In this document: in pieces, positions 49,115 through 55,467 of the stretch
How positions within the stretch are numbered: the first letter of the stretch is position 1
How the letters are laid out: each line of letters opens with the position of its first letter
Assembly: GCA_018673955.1 (NCBI GenBank)
Contig: JABHBJ010000103.1
Location: forward strand, 1 to 57,521
Source of the DNA: Chloroflexota bacterium
GTDB lineage: Bacteria; Chloroflexota; Dehalococcoidia; Lucifugimonadales; Lucifugimonadaceae
Direction: 5' to 3'
DNA: 57,521 nucleotides
Notes under the pieces: model-generated
Database searches by the model: none
What the model was told of the DNA's origin: nothing
Seen by the model: the letters and a program-made list of their open reading frames with translations, nothing else
Made by a program: the position numbers and the translations under genes

Positions 49115-49696
49115 ATGCAGACGTGCTCTGACGTATATCTCGAATCACTAGTTTCATTAAGGACACCTGCATCATTGGCTGAGTCGAACTTAACCCGACC
49201 TAATATGGACGATTACATGATGTCGATCGCAGTAGGAGTTCGTGCTCGTGCGAACTGTCTGGGAAGCCAAATCGGCGCGGTGCTGGCTCGCGACGGTCAC
49301 ATCGTTTCGACTGGCTACAACGGCACGCCCCACAAGACACCCAACTGCGACGAAGGTGGCTGCGCAAGGTGCTCGAATCGTGATCTGTATCCATCTGGAA
49401 CTGGTTATGACATGTGCATTTGCGTCCATGCCGAACAGAACGCTCTGCTATCGGCAGCAAGGTTCGGAATAGCGGTCGAAGGCTCGATTCTGTACACCAC
49501 TTGGCAGCCTTGCTTTAGCTGCACGAAAGAAATGCTTCAGGCGGGGGTTCTCGGTGTTCGTTACGGCGAAAACTGGGAGCCGAATCCTGATTTGAAGGAA
49601 GAATACGAACGACTCCAGAGTTTCTTCCCTCAGAAAGTAACGAAGGTCGATCTCCCAGCATATGCCGACTCACACATAAGGGGCATCAAGGCGTAA
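49115..49696 (+). CDS. dCMP/cytidine-deaminase-like zinc deaminase
   Basis: The product (193 residues from ATG 49,115; a start at ATG 49,205 would give 163) has the zinc-deaminase core. It comprises the N-terminal CLGSQIGAVLARDGHIVSTG, the His-Ala-Glu motif in CICVHAEQNALL (His105, Glu107), and TTWQPCFSCTKEM with Cys133 and Cys136. The YNGTPHKTPNC region with an extra Cys-rich loop (CARCSNRD) matches dCMP deaminases (ComEB type). The reaction is dCMP to dUMP plus ammonia. The next gene starts two bases after the stop, an unexpected pairing with an enolase-superfamily enzyme. Neither start has a Shine-Dalgarno. Confidence 0.85.
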   Translation: MQTCSDVYLESLVSLRTPASLAESNLTRPNMDDYMMSIAVGVRARANCLGSQIGAVLARDGHIVSTGYNGTPHKTPNCDEGGCARCSNRDLYPSGTGYDMCICVHAEQNALLSAARFGIAVEGSILYTTWQPCFSCTKEMLQAGVLGVRYGENWEPNPDLKEEYERLQSFFPQKVTKVDLPAYADSHIRGIKA

Positions 49697-49698
49697 TC

Positions 49699-50901
49699 AT
49701 GAAAATAACTAGTGTTGAGACGATTGCGCTACGAGACGATGCTGACGGTACCGTAACGTCGTGGAATCCGTCGTTTTCCGAAGGCGATGAAGGTCCAGCC
49801 AGCACCGGCGGTTACGACCTCACCGTCGTTCGAGTTCACACCGACGAAGGTATAAGTGGTATCGGGCAATGTGAGGCCCCGAGTTTGGTGATCGACGCGA
49901 TTATTCGGTCGACGCTCGGACTCGAAGTGCTGCTGGTTGGTGAGGACCCTACAGAAGTTCAGCGCTTGTGGCAGAAGATGTACAACTCGACCGGTGTATT
50001 TGGTCGGCGTGGAGTTGTTGTCGGTGCAATCGGAGCGATTGAAACCGCGCTCTGGGACATCGCAGGCAAGGCGGCCGGAAAACCCGTTCACAAGCTCATT
50101 TGGCGGTCGTTTACTACCACCGCAAGTGACACCGAATCCCTAAAACGGGTGACCCCTTACGCAACCGTCTATCCACCGGGGGCGAATCTGGAAGAGCTTG
50201 AAGAACGACTCAAAATTGCCGTTGCTCGTGGCGTGAAAGCGGTGAAGATCGAAGAGTGGCCGGGCCAGTTCGCGAACGTAGACCTCGAAACGGATGTTGC
50301 GGTAATCGAGAAGGCGCGATCGATAATTGGACCCAAGCGCGACTTGATGATCGATGTACAAAATCGGTGGCGAGACGTTGGTCAGGCGATACAGACCATC
50401 GATGCTATCGAGGAGTTCAGCCCATACTTCATAGAAGCTCCACTCCCTGCCGACAATATGGAGGGCTATCGTCGTTTGTATGAATCAACCAACGTGCGAA
50501 TTGCGGTTGGCGATTGGGGATTCAGTACCCGCCACGAATTCGCCGATTTATTACGCCGTGGAAAATTGGGAGTCGTTCAGCCAAGCGCAGTTCGTGCAGG
50601 TGGTATGCATGAAATATTGAACATTGCCGAGGATGCCTACCGCTTCGGAGCGTTATGCATCCCACACACGTGGTGTCATGTGATCGGCGTCGCTGCTCAA
50701 CTTCATCTTGCAGCTATCACCCCGAACATGCCCTATTTCGAATTCCCGATAGCGTTTCCTGCATCGCCATTGGTTGAGAATCTGCTGCTCCCTAACTTCG
50801 AGATAGCGCTGGACGGAACAATGGAGGTTCCGGATCGACCGGGTCTTGGTTTTGAGCTCAATGAAGAAGTTATTTCAGAGTTCAGAGTCGATCCTTACTA
50901 A
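49699..50901 (+). CDS. mandelate racemase/enolase-superfamily protein with Asp at the third metal site
   Basis: The 400-residue protein has the cap strand DLTVVRVHTDEGISGIGQCE. The barrel has Lys in KAVKIEEWPG, Asp in LMIDVQNRW, Glu in YFIEAPLPADN, and IAVGDWGFSTRHEF where the third Mg ligand, usually Glu in GE, is Asp. The late acid/base His is in PHTWCHVIG. The overall pattern fits the mandelate-racemase/fuconate-dehydratase side of the family. It is translationally close to the dCMP-deaminase-like gene (two-base spacing). Substrate unknown; activity is likely but unproven given the changed ligand. Confidence 0.82.
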   Translation: MKITSVETIALRDDADGTVTSWNPSFSEGDEGPASTGGYDLTVVRVHTDEGISGIGQCEAPSLVIDAIIRSTLGLEVLLVGEDPTEVQRLWQKMYNSTGVFGRRGVVVGAIGAIETALWDIAGKAAGKPVHKLIWRSFTTTASDTESLKRVTPYATVYPPGANLEELEERLKIAVARGVKAVKIEEWPGQFANVDLETDVAVIEKARSIIGPKRDLMIDVQNRWRDVGQAIQTIDAIEEFSPYFIEAPLPADNMEGYRRLYESTNVRIAVGDWGFSTRHEFADLLRRGKLGVVQPSAVRAGGMHEILNIAEDAYRFGALCIPHTWCHVIGVAAQLHLAAITPNMPYFEFPIAFPASPLVENLLLPNFEIALDGTMEVPDRPGLGFELNEEVISEFRVDPY

Positions 50902-50996: not shown

Positions 50997-51557
50997 ATGA
51001 CTGGGATCATTTTTGTTGAAGATGACACCAGCCTAAAGGGTCGGTTAAGGAAACATCTGCGTAATCCACCGATGCGATCGGTCTTCTTGATCGTACTTCT
51101 GGTATTCGCTATCCCTGTTGCGATTGCTTACCCAAAGGTTTCCGGTGTTGCGCAAGAGAATTGGAGCGATGTTCAGCAAGCTCGAGAACGACACTTTGTG
51201 AACGTGACGGTAGCAAGCCGGATATACCCGTTCCTTAGAAAGTAAGCAGTACGAATGCAAGAAGCAGACGTACCTGCGGAGTGGCTCAGTGTGAGATTCA
51301 AGAACGGCCCATGTTTGGCAGAGCACATGACTCAGCTGCCCGGATGTAAGTACGCTTACGCTATTGAGAGTGCTTGCTGGCTGCTCGATGAAATCTAAAT
51401 GAAATATTCTCCTGAATGCACTCAAACTTCAGCGTGCAATATTCCTGAAGAGGCCGTTGTGGATCTTCAGATCGTTTTAGATCGATTGAAGGTGGCTTTC
51501 TCTGACGCCAATCTCGTTCGACTGGCGACTGACGATGAGGGGCAAATCAGAGATTAG
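50997..51557 (+). pseudogene. first copy of a tandem Cys-containing single-pass membrane protein family, interrupted
   Basis: From ATG 50,997 one frame runs to TAG 51,555 with two TAA codons inside, at 51,243-51,245 and 51,396-51,398. The N-terminus has the family motif GRLRKHLRNP, then a membrane helix (SVFLIVLLVFAIPVAIAY). After the first stop the outer domain continues with VPAEWLSVRFKNGPC, SACWLLDEI and, after the second stop, ECTQTSACNIPEEAV, all matching the two intact copies downstream. No frameshift occurs. Either a recent loss of function or an unusual readthrough case. Confidence 0.75.
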
Positions 51558-51696
51558 TGGGGTGTATATCCGCGATTATTTTTCTGCCATGCGGTGGTAT
51601 TAGGGAGTAGCATGCACTGTCGATACATCCGATCTGTCCGATAATCGCTAGGTCTGAATTTTTTACTCATGATCTCAGTACTGATTGAACTTTAAT

Positions 51697-52254
51697 ATGG
51701 ATATTTCGTTCGACAACGACACTTCAAAAAGTGCCCGCTTACGACGTGAACTGCGGAATCCTTCATTGCTCACGATTTTCTTAATCGTCACCGTTGTTTG
51801 TGTTGTGATTTTTGCTCCGTTCGCTCCGGGTTGGATTTCCACAACAAAAGAAAGCTTTGCCGATATTGCGAAGAAGAAAGAGATCACTGAAGCGAGCATG
51901 AGTTCGCTCACGTCGATTGTTCCAAGCCAAATTTCACCCTGGCTAGCGACTCAAGCAAATACGATGATTAATGCCGAGGGGCCGCTCGATTGGAAGGTAG
52001 TGTCGTTCAGGAGAGGGCCATGCAGTGGCGGAAACCTGTCTCAGCTTCCAGCTGGTAAGTACTCCGATTCGATCGGTACGGCATGCGTTGAGCTCGATCG
52101 TATTCAGCAGTTGTACTCAGGAAAGTGTTTTAGGGCATCCGATTGCACTGTTCCTGAAGTCGCCAAAGAAGAAATTAGTGCAGCGATTGGCAACGTTTGG
52201 GAAGCGTTCTCCGACGCCGGATTCGTGCTTCCTTACGACGTAATCGAGCAATGA
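51697..52254 (+). CDS. tandem Cys-containing single-pass membrane protein, copy 2
   Basis: ATG 51,697 gives 185 residues (an upstream TTG at 51,685 adds four). A short cytoplasmic segment ends in the motif ARLRRELRNPS. One helix follows (LLTIFLIVTVVCVVIFAPFA), then an outer domain of about 145 residues. Shared features with copies 1 and 3 are a Pro-Trp-Leu after a helix (QISPWLAT), a Trp followed by FRRGPC, a second Cys in GTACVELD, and a C-x5-C pair CFRASDC, followed by a C-terminal helix. Four conserved Cys suggest two disulfides outside the membrane. I recognise no family. Confidence 0.75.
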   Translation: MDISFDNDTSKSARLRRELRNPSLLTIFLIVTVVCVVIFAPFAPGWISTTKESFADIAKKKEITEASMSSLTSIVPSQISPWLATQANTMINAEGPLDWKVVSFRRGPCSGGNLSQLPAGKYSDSIGTACVELDRIQQLYSGKCFRASDCTVPEVAKEEISAAIGNVWEAFSDAGFVLPYDVIEQ

Positions 52255-52369
52255 TTCCCTCAACCGCACGTTGCCTCGTCTAAACTGACTCCAAAACTTG
52301 GCATGTTGTGTGCCGACGCAGTTCGATGAATTGAAACATAGCCGTTTGGCTACAAGGGGTGGTCGCAAA

Positions 52370-52912
52370 ATGGGTCTTCAGTACGAGCAAGATAATTCCG
52401 GTAAAGAACGCCTGAAACGTGCGATTAAGAATCCGTCTAAGCGCACGCTATTGATCCTCTTGTTGGTGATAGTCGTGATTACTGGTCCGTTTACATTGAA
52501 GACGTTTAGTACAGCTCAAGAAGGTATCGGAGAAGTACTCTCTGATCATGATTTGAATGAAAGCCTGAGCGCAGGACCGAGGAATCTGACTGACGAACAG
52601 ATTGCACCGTGGCTGGTGTCAAACGGCGAGATCATGATTGGTGCGACTGTTCCTCCTGAATGGGAGATCGGCAACTATAGATTCGGTGCTTGTTCAACCG
52701 ATCGTCTCGACGAAATCGTGGATCCGGTCTACCGAACGGCAATAATTGGAGGCTGTAACTCATTTTACGATATCCAAGGCAAGTACAACCGAGACTGCCA
52801 TATCGCCTCCAATTGCAATGTGAAGCAGATTGCGAAGGACCAACTTGCCGCCGCTATGGATATTGTCAGGTCGGCACATGCAGCTGCTGGCTACGTTTGG
52901 CCAGGTTCATAA
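52370..52912 (+). CDS. tandem Cys-containing single-pass membrane protein, copy 3
   Basis: ATG 52,370, with GGTGG eight bases upstream, gives 180 residues. The layout repeats copy 2: ERLKRAIKNPSKR, helix TLLILLLVIVVITGPFTL, a helical linker, QIAPWLVSNGEIMI, PPEWEIGNYRFGAC, GGCNSFYD and the C-x5-C pair CHIASNC, then a C-terminal helix. It is only about 115 bases after copy 2. The two intact copies are divergent in sequence, so the duplication is not recent. Function unknown; the fixed Arg/Lys-Asn-Pro motif at the membrane may be a topology or partner-binding signal. Confidence 0.75.
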   Translation: MGLQYEQDNSGKERLKRAIKNPSKRTLLILLLVIVVITGPFTLKTFSTAQEGIGEVLSDHDLNESLSAGPRNLTDEQIAPWLVSNGEIMIGATVPPEWEIGNYRFGACSTDRLDEIVDPVYRTAIIGGCNSFYDIQGKYNRDCHIASNCNVKQIAKDQLAAAMDIVRSAHAAAGYVWPGS

Positions 52913-53092: not shown

Positions 53093-53751
53093 TTTTCTCC
53101 TCGGAATGTTTTGATAGTAATTGCCGTACTTGTTGTTTCTACTGGACTAGTAATGGTGGTGACCGATTCTGCTTCGTCTAAAGCGAATGATCACGCTATT
53201 GCTATGACTGGAATTAATATGGTAAATGGCGAACAGGTTCTTCTTCAGATCATTGCTTCAGTACAGGCTAGAAAGTCAGATCGAGAAGTTGCCACCGCTG
53301 CTCTAAGAGGCGTTAACGCTCGTGGTCTAAGGTCTGTCTGATCGCCTCGCATGATTGCGACACCGTAGGAATCTGATCCGTATTCATTGACCGGAACTGA
53401 GATCATCGAGCGACCGGACTTTTCTAATACGTGTGCTAACGCTGCCCCGACAGGACTAGTTACGAATATGACATATCTCCCCTGGCTACGGCGATCATGC
53501 CGGTTGCCGACTTGTCGTTTCCACGCCAATACCCGATGTAAGAAGTTCGCGACGTCAGGATTATTTACCGATGGGGTGTAGTTCCTTTGAGAACCACATG
53601 TGTTACTGATTATTCGTAAGGAAATAATCGAATATACAAGCTCTGGAGAATTGGCGAGTAGGGGCTGCTAGACTGCCTGAAATTCACTCAGAGTTGCGTA
53701 GCACGTAAACAACGATCGGTATTTCACGATCACAAAAGGAAAGCCACCTAC
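53093..53751. other. gap with uncertain short frames
   Basis: A plus-strand frame from TTG 53,111 to 53,341 begins with a hydrophobic stretch (LIVIAVLVVSTGLVMVVTD) and then an Ala-rich part. A minus-strand frame (53,245-53,529) overlaps it and contains protein-like text (GRSMISVPVNEYGSDSYGV). Both look like possible decayed genes; neither gives a recognisable domain. The rest to 53,751 holds only the GGAAAG ribosome binding site of the next gene. Confidence 0.3.
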
Positions 53752-55467
53752 ATGGACAGCAACCTATCTCCGCACGGGCTGATTGGTGAGGCGTATCGAC
53801 CGCCAAAGATCGGTAGCAAAGGGGCGGTCGTTGCGAACCACACGATGGCGACTCAGGCTGGGATGCGAATACTCCACCGGGGAGGAAACGCAGTCGACGC
53901 CGCAATCGCTGTGGCGTTCGCTCTGGGCGCAGCCGAGCCACAGGGATCGTCGATTGGTGGCGATGGATTTGTGATGGTTCACATGGCTGCGAACGCCACG
54001 GTAGAGGTTGCAAACGGAACCGGTTCAGCTCCGCTCGCCGCCACTGCCGATAAGTACAAAGACGGCATACCGTACACAGGTATTTTGGGGACGTCGGTTC
54101 CGGGAATCGTCGATGCCCTACTGAGCGCCCATCAAAAGTACGGAATATTGACTCTGGCACAGTGTTTAGACCCTGCGATTGAACTTTGTGAAGATGGCGT
54201 TCCTGTTTCTGATTTTCAATCTCGAATGGCAGCACTTAATCCGGTGCTTAGAAGTTCTGCAACCTCTGGACCAGTATTTGCTCCGAACGGAAACTGGCTG
54301 AAGCCGGGCGAGATTCGCCGAAATCCTGATTTGGCTCGCACATACAAGCAAATTGCCGATCAGGGTCGTGACGCTTTCTATGAAGGCGATATTGCCCGTG
54401 AGATCGCACGGTACTCAGAAGAACACGATGGGTTGTTGACCTACGAAGACCTCAAACGTCATGAGGTTGAGTGGCAGGCTCCGTTGTCGATCAACTACCG
54501 AGGTCGAACTGTGTACGAAGCACCACCGAACTCAAGCGGTCACGTTTTGCTTCAAGAGCTGGCGATGTTTGAGAAGTTCGATCCGAAGCAGTACAGCTAC
54601 ATGACGTCCGGATCAGTGCAGCTAATGGTCGAGGCGAAAAGACTGGCGTTCGCAGATCGAGAGGCCTACCTCGCTGACCCCAACTACGTCGATGTTCCTA
54701 TAGATGGCATGCTCAATCCCGAGTATTTGGCAGAGCGAGCAGCGCTGATAGATATCGATCGAGCGGCTTCCGATGTCGTAGAGGGCGATCCTTGGGCCTT
54801 TATGGATCGATCGCCTGATGCAGCAAAAAGGCACCGCAGAGGTCGGCGACTTCATTCGGCTGAAACCGATACGACGCACTTCTGTGTGGTCGACCGCTGG
54901 GGCAACTCAGTCGGTGAACTCCAGAGCATCCAAACCATGTTTGGATCGTGCGTCATCGCAGGGTCAACTGGAATATTGATGAACAACCGGATGACCTACT
55001 GGCACCTCGAACCCGATCACATCGACTATCTCAATCCGGGTCAACGAGTACGACACACTATGAACCCTGTGATGGTTTTCTCTAAGCCGGCAGAAGAAGG
55101 CGGTAAGCTCGAGTTGGTCTGCGGAACGCCGGGAGCTGATACGCAAGTGCAAACTAACTTTCAGGTAGTTACGAGCGTATTTGACTATGGATTGAACGTG
55201 GCAGAAGCGATCGACGGTCCACGTTGGACTCACAATCAGGCGGGAATGGGATCGGCATCACCGCGATCAACGGTGGATGTACTTCAGATCGAAGATAGGT
55301 CAGGGTCGGAAGTTATTCAAGGCCTGAAAAAGCGTGGGCAACCAGTGGAATCCACTGGCGCTTGGGGTGGAGCCGGTAGCGAAGGGGCGATACAAGTTGA
55401 TCTTGAGAACGGAACGATGTTTGCAGCGTCGGATCCTCGCCGAGAGGGTGACGCACAAGTTTGGTAA
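53752..55467 (+). CDS. gamma-glutamyltransferase-like N-terminal-nucleophile hydrolase
   Basis: The 571-residue precursor has the conserved GGNAVDAAIAVAFALGAAEP and IGGDGFVM near the N-terminus, LTYEDLKRHEVEWQAPL, ANSSGxLLQ-like PPNSSGHVLLQEL, and the processing site ETDTTHFCVVDRWGN with catalytic Thr374. VTxxLxxxFG is replaced by LQSIQTMFGSCVI. The chain should self-cleave before Thr374 into two subunits. No signal peptide precedes the family domain, so it is probably cytoplasmic, unlike most GGTs, and may act as an amide hydrolase or acylase. GGAAAG is eight bases before the ATG. A paralog is at 1-1,211. Confidence 0.88.
   Translation: MDSNLSPHGLIGEAYRPPKIGSKGAVVANHTMATQAGMRILHRGGNAVDAAIAVAFALGAAEPQGSSIGGDGFVMVHMAANATVEVANGTGSAPLAATADKYKDGIPYTGILGTSVPGIVDALLSAHQKYGILTLAQCLDPAIELCEDGVPVSDFQSRMAALNPVLRSSATSGPVFAPNGNWLKPGEIRRNPDLARTYKQIADQGRDAFYEGDIAREIARYSEEHDGLLTYEDLKRHEVEWQAPLSINYRGRTVYEAPPNSSGHVLLQELAMFEKFDPKQYSYMTSGSVQLMVEAKRLAFADREAYLADPNYVDVPIDGMLNPEYLAERAALIDIDRAASDVVEGDPWAFMDRSPDAAKRHRRGRRLHSAETDTTHFCVVDRWGNSVGELQSIQTMFGSCVIAGSTGILMNNRMTYWHLEPDHIDYLNPGQRVRHTMNPVMVFSKPAEEGGKLELVCGTPGADTQVQTNFQVVTSVFDYGLNVAEAIDGPRWTHNQAGMGSASPRSTVDVLQIEDRSGSEVIQGLKKRGQPVESTGAWGGAGSEGAIQVDLENGTMFAASDPRREGDAQVW

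Follow-up and report, generated by a model that had tools for sequence, protein, structure and literature searches.

Several described systems resemble in build the membrane proteins treated here. The sensor domains of Tar/Tsr, NarQ, KinB and McpZ are membrane-anchored extracytoplasmic helical bundles, and in the 4HB/TarH-type layout two transmembrane segments flank a four-helix sensor domain and a cytoplasmic transmitter follows. Psb27, a lipoprotein of oxygenic phototrophs and a four-helix assembly factor of photosystem II, is likewise a small anchored helical bundle outside the membrane. Type IV pilins and the N-terminal domain of geopilin combine a short basic N-terminus, a hydrophobic helix and an outer domain; the class III signal of pilins and archaellins has Gly/Ala ahead of that helix and Glu at +5. 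OppC_N (PF12911), the N-terminal anchor of dipeptide permeases, contains a similar basic stretch with R-N-P preceding a transmembrane helix.

SAR202 bacteria are abundant marine organisms, and to our knowledge little is known about what they display at their surface. In a stretch of 57,521 nucleotides of SAR202 DNA (the window), a first-pass annotation had reported three adjacent plus-strand homologues with common motifs that belonged to no family it recognised. We found that the three copies do share four cysteines and an N-P motif, and models from Pfam, NCBIfam, PDB sequences and PADLOC all failed to recognise them. The hallmarks of the family are a cytoplasmic R-N-P-S/P motif, one transmembrane helix, and an ectodomain with a Trp, a G-x-C and three further cysteines.

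The family differs from the helix-bundle sensors in having one transmembrane segment only, no cytoplasmic output and four conserved cysteines, and its members end 10-12 residues past the last helix, unlike the 4HB/TarH-type layout. No sequence relation to Psb27 was found. A relation to type IV pilins or archaellins was considered and rejected: N-P-S/P precedes the helix, a 55-member alignment has no conserved Glu, and there is no prepilin peptidase site; the geopilin/pilin PDB-profile match was weak (E 0.25), and the outer domain of pilins is beta whereas that of the family is predicted to be helical. Membership in OppC_N was likewise set aside, as hmmscan returned no match; PF12911 matches five other loci in the genome, none of them on the window's contig.

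The locus and its relatives

The family genes and their conserved neighbours, in order along the window, are as follows.

49115..49696, plus strand: dCMP/cytidine deaminase (PF00383), conserved upstream neighbour
49699..50901, plus strand: mandelate racemase/muconate lactonizing enolase-superfamily enzyme, conserved upstream neighbour
50997..51557, plus strand: copy 1 (paralogue P1), pseudogene; a single frame with TAA at 51243-51245 and 51396-51398 and a final TAG at 51555-51557
51697..52254, plus strand: copy 2 (paralogue P2), intact, 185 aa; cytoplasmic 1-23, RNP 20-22, transmembrane about 24-43, ectodomain 44-185
52370..52912, plus strand: copy 3 (paralogue P3), intact, 180 aa; architecture as in copy 2
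53752..55467, plus strand: gamma-glutamyltranspeptidase (PF01019), conserved downstream neighbour

Translation of copy 2 probably begins at 51697, and that of copy 3 at 52370 instead of at the TTG upstream of it. Copies 2 and 3 match over their whole length, with 31% identity (phmmer E about 3e-32 in a three-sequence database). The N-terminal piece of copy 1 matches copy 2 with an E-value of 6e-11 (again in a three-sequence database), and copy 1 read through its stops aligns with copy 2 at residues 5-177 with 36% identity (whole-genome search, E 8.6e-28). Two copies had been called intact and one interrupted by stops; this stands for copies 2 and 3, and copy 1 is here corrected to one frame with two TAA codons and no frameshift. 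The three copies are the only family members in the window's genome (2.2 Mb, 103 contigs, 87% complete).

Profiles from Pfam, NCBIfam, PHROGs and PADLOC gave best E-values of 0.001-0.2, all under the curated cut-off where one is present (Pfam, NCBIfam), and a search of the published literature found nothing on the family. With the sequence of copy 2 as query, relatives were recovered from 27 of 60 genomes, including 17 of the 18 other same-genus genomes sampled. A 16-sequence profile found the family in 44 of the 76 sampled genomes of the window's GTDB family, and found nothing convincing among 250 genomes from the order's other families or in a phylum sample of 400 genomes. Matches in two genomes, G153 (E 0.0018) and G048 (E 0.0099), covered only the N-terminal/transmembrane or first-helix region and were treated as chance. 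The proposal that the family is restricted to this clade agrees with these counts, and as judged from sequence searches it appears to be an old, uncharacterised family found so far only in one marine SAR202 family. Its interest lies in this presence across one SAR202 family without described relatives; its mechanism is so far unsurprising, small clade-specific single-pass proteins being common.

Within the genus, a maximum-likelihood tree resolved three monophyletic paralogue groups, P1 (15 rows, 100/99), P2 (17 rows, 90/94) and P3 (10 rows, 100/100), which argues that the tandem is old. A P2-clade sequence is present in all 17 same-genus genomes that carry the family, the window's own excluded. 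Most relatives have P1 intact; G001 and G007 lack it, and in the window it is a pseudogene. Copies 2 and 3 are under purifying selection, with pairwise dN/dS of about 0.11-0.32. The gene order runs from trpB (on the opposite strand) through the dCMP deaminase, the enolase-superfamily enzyme and the family genes to the gamma-glutamyltranspeptidase. It is conserved across the greater part of the genus, and two further genera retain it in part; in G013, a same-genus genome in a single contig of 3,094,136 bases, two copies stand at the conserved locus. By the tree and the gene order, the three copies are ancient paralogues inherited vertically. We rejected a recent amplification of the tandem and phase variation, as the paralogue clades are older than the genus radiation and the copies are 31-36% identical.

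The expectation that the genes would always be found in tandem failed: in other genera the family is represented by one or two unlinked copies at other places, beside purL, D-Tyr-tRNA deacylase, argS or an amidase, so the tandem arrangement is not a general property. We judged the linkage to the enolase-superfamily gene incidental, because the cultured SAR202 strain JH545 has about 80 such genes (PMC10444878) and because these other genera carry the family elsewhere. Separately, codon 51 of the P2 orthologue of G018 (L042:5001-5555) is an in-frame TAA. It is the family's second nonsense mutation of independent origin, and P2 is therefore not strictly indispensable.

Topology, cysteines and predicted fold

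Among 53-54 aligned members, P22, W99, C109, C130, Q137 and C144 are invariant, and N21, P81, M90, G107 and C150 are 96-98% conserved. Hydrophobicity indicates one transmembrane segment in 51 of 53 members. Because Lys and Arg are more numerous before this segment than after it (means of 4.9 and 1.9), we infer an N-in/C-out orientation by the positive-inside rule. The ectodomain cysteines of copy 2 are C109, C130, C144 and C150 (C-x20-C-x13-C-x5-C); all four are kept across all groups, with three of four present in two members, and additional cysteines are few. In the P1 orthologue of G009 (L038:4291-4848) the fourth cysteine is replaced by Ser, the sole such loss seen in P1.

The window's genome has a match above cut-off to VKOR, a disulfide-forming enzyme, which makes extracytoplasmic disulfides plausible. 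Since JH545 is monoderm by thin-section TEM (PMC10444878), the ectodomain would face the medium. We consider it probable that the ectodomain is outward-facing and has structural disulfides, and the original description of single-pass proteins with four conserved, probably disulfide-bonded extracytoplasmic cysteines is supported to this extent, as a predicted topology with putative disulfides.

AlphaFold, run on copy 2 with a 16-sequence alignment, gave a mean pLDDT of 71 (about 80-90 in the ectodomain) and a pTM of 0.55, with helices at residues 76-91, 121-141 and 154-173 at pLDDT of about 80-90. Alpha periodicity of hydrophobicity in the alignment supports the three helices (p 0.027, 0.054 and 0.026), and the best conserved segment, W99-C109, has a beta-like periodicity, so the fold may contain some strand besides helix. 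A single-sequence model of the copy 3 ectodomain had a pLDDT of 33 and was not usable. With moderate confidence, the ectodomain is predicted to be mainly helical.

Foldseek against the PDB returned no match at E <= 0.001 (best E 0.55), which is not proof of a new fold. VIA-align against the PDB returned only generic helix bundles, with Z at most 7.8, a value ordinary for unrelated helical bundles. The sensor domains of McpZ, KinB, NarQ, Tar and Tsr scored 6.8-7.8 over about 100 residues at 5-11% sequence identity, and Psb27 scored a non-specific 7.3-7.4.

Candidate roles

The first-pass annotation had suggested a surface or envelope function, as a binding protein, an antagonist or its immunity-like partner. 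The general binding role survives, our best guess being a protein of housekeeping type that serves in binding or as a scaffold at the surface. The antagonist and immunity part is not supported, for reasons given below. In the specific form that we tentatively favour, this is a lineage-specific signal-anchor family that serves constitutively as a scaffold or receptor-like protein, its ectodomain binding either a membrane complex or some component of the envelope. On the predicted cytoplasmic side, a short basic stretch that ends in R-N-P-S caps one transmembrane helix, and the C-terminal part of about 140 residues would lie outside the membrane as a mainly helical domain (from AlphaFold, at moderate confidence), held by two disulfides presumably formed through the VKOR pathway. 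In a monoderm cell the ectodomain would be exposed to the medium or the wall and could bind a partner there, as a scaffold or receptor-like subunit without a signalling output of its own. Ancient duplication gave rise to three paralogues with diverged ectodomains, of which P2 is the most stably kept and P1 is dispensable and broken in the window's genome. The tandem's neighbours are metabolic enzymes unrelated to the family, and we counted this against the explanation, along with the 16-sequence basis of the structural model and its pTM, the low pLDDT for copy 3, the beta-like W99-C109 segment and the nonsense mutation of P2 in G018.

Evidence from g4, another genus of the same family, bears on how the anchor is used. 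Four of its genomes (G097, G031, G096 and G021) encode a protein that matches the family only in the first 55 or so residues, and in the three of these four proteins that were read (L100:902-1369, L101:538-1197 and L102:748-1365) the RNPS-transmembrane anchor is joined to a different, two-cysteine ectodomain. The alternative ectodomains had no match to the family profile, and the one tested had no Pfam match; in the window's genome the anchor profile finds copies 1-3 only. An anchor whose sole task is display of the outer part would be expected to occur with other ectodomains in this way.

The same module, kept even in the most divergent members and reused with another ectodomain, also speaks for a possible, if unlikely, alternative: an accessory role, as a small subunit of a membrane-bound transporter, respiratory or protein-export complex, in which the transmembrane and juxtamembrane parts are functional and the ectodomain caps a partner. 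The first ectodomain helix (0.92) and the juxtamembrane segment (0.83) are highly conserved in P1, and anchored assembly factors, Psb27 among them, appear in the non-specific structural matches. Against this, the neighbourhoods examined have no conserved linkage to membrane-complex genes, and confinement to part of one bacterial family means that the protein is not a core subunit of a universal complex.

Returning to surface binding, we regard as rather unlikely a broader version of it, in which a modular, SAR202-specific surface display combines the shared R-N-P-S transmembrane anchor with varied disulfide-bonded ectodomains for different external ligands or envelope partners, and in which the three long-kept paralogues of the Lucifugimonas-like genus would be included.

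We think it quite unlikely that the family is a split receptor, that is, an extracytoplasmic helix-bundle sensor that feeds a separate cytoplasmic partner and has no transmitter of its own. The sensor domains listed above are among its top structural neighbours, and one genus has a copy upstream of a LuxR-type response regulator; however, Z scores under 8 are ordinary for helical bundles, the regulator linkage is limited to that genus, and the proteins have no second transmembrane segment, HAMP domain or kinase. The four near-invariant cysteines, together with the invariant Trp and Gln, would also suit a redox-active or metal-binding protein, in which they ligate a metal or an Fe-S cluster or undergo dithiol cycling. 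We hold this to be improbable, as CxxC and CxxCH motifs are absent, no profile of a redox or metal-binding family matches above cut-off, and cysteines outside the membrane, in a genome that encodes VKOR, favour structural disulfides.

An antagonist or immunity-like protein, which would be membrane-anchored and neutralise or act as an inter-bacterial toxin or exclude phages, is compatible with tandem diverged copies, a single transmembrane segment and extracytoplasmic cysteines, with a weak match of one of 16 members to a PADLOC single-TM effector model (E 0.005) and with a matrixin protease directly downstream in some relatives, but is very improbable given the fixed housekeeping gene order with vertical inheritance, the purifying selection, the persistence of copies 2 and 3 while copy 1 decays, and the lack of a toxin gene, a mobile context, a homologue in the one viral-contig scan or any defence model above background. 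A phage origin was also rejected, one degenerate pattern scanned against viral contigs having found no relative.

Decay of copy 1 and its surroundings

Both TAA codons of copy 1 are CAG in the sister genome, and intact P1 orthologues are present in G014 (L051:1412-1969) and G009 (L065). Because both stops face Gln, we considered whether TAA might be read as Gln in copy 1. This was ruled out by the pattern of change: the window lineage has 18 nonsynonymous and 18 synonymous changes, the sister lineage 1 and 12 respectively (Fisher p 0.008), and those of the window lineage include the loss of conserved Trp75 and Gly residues.

By comparison with the sister genome, the stretch from copy 3 to the transpeptidase is decaying in the window as well; genes for a matrixin-type peptidase and an NAD epimerase are intact there. 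The window has a matrixin-type (Peptidase_M10) remnant on the plus strand at 53138-53335, which has 71% identity to the intact L051 gene across 66 aa, and an NAD-dependent epimerase remnant on the minus strand at 53326-53525, about 78% identical to its intact L051 counterpart.
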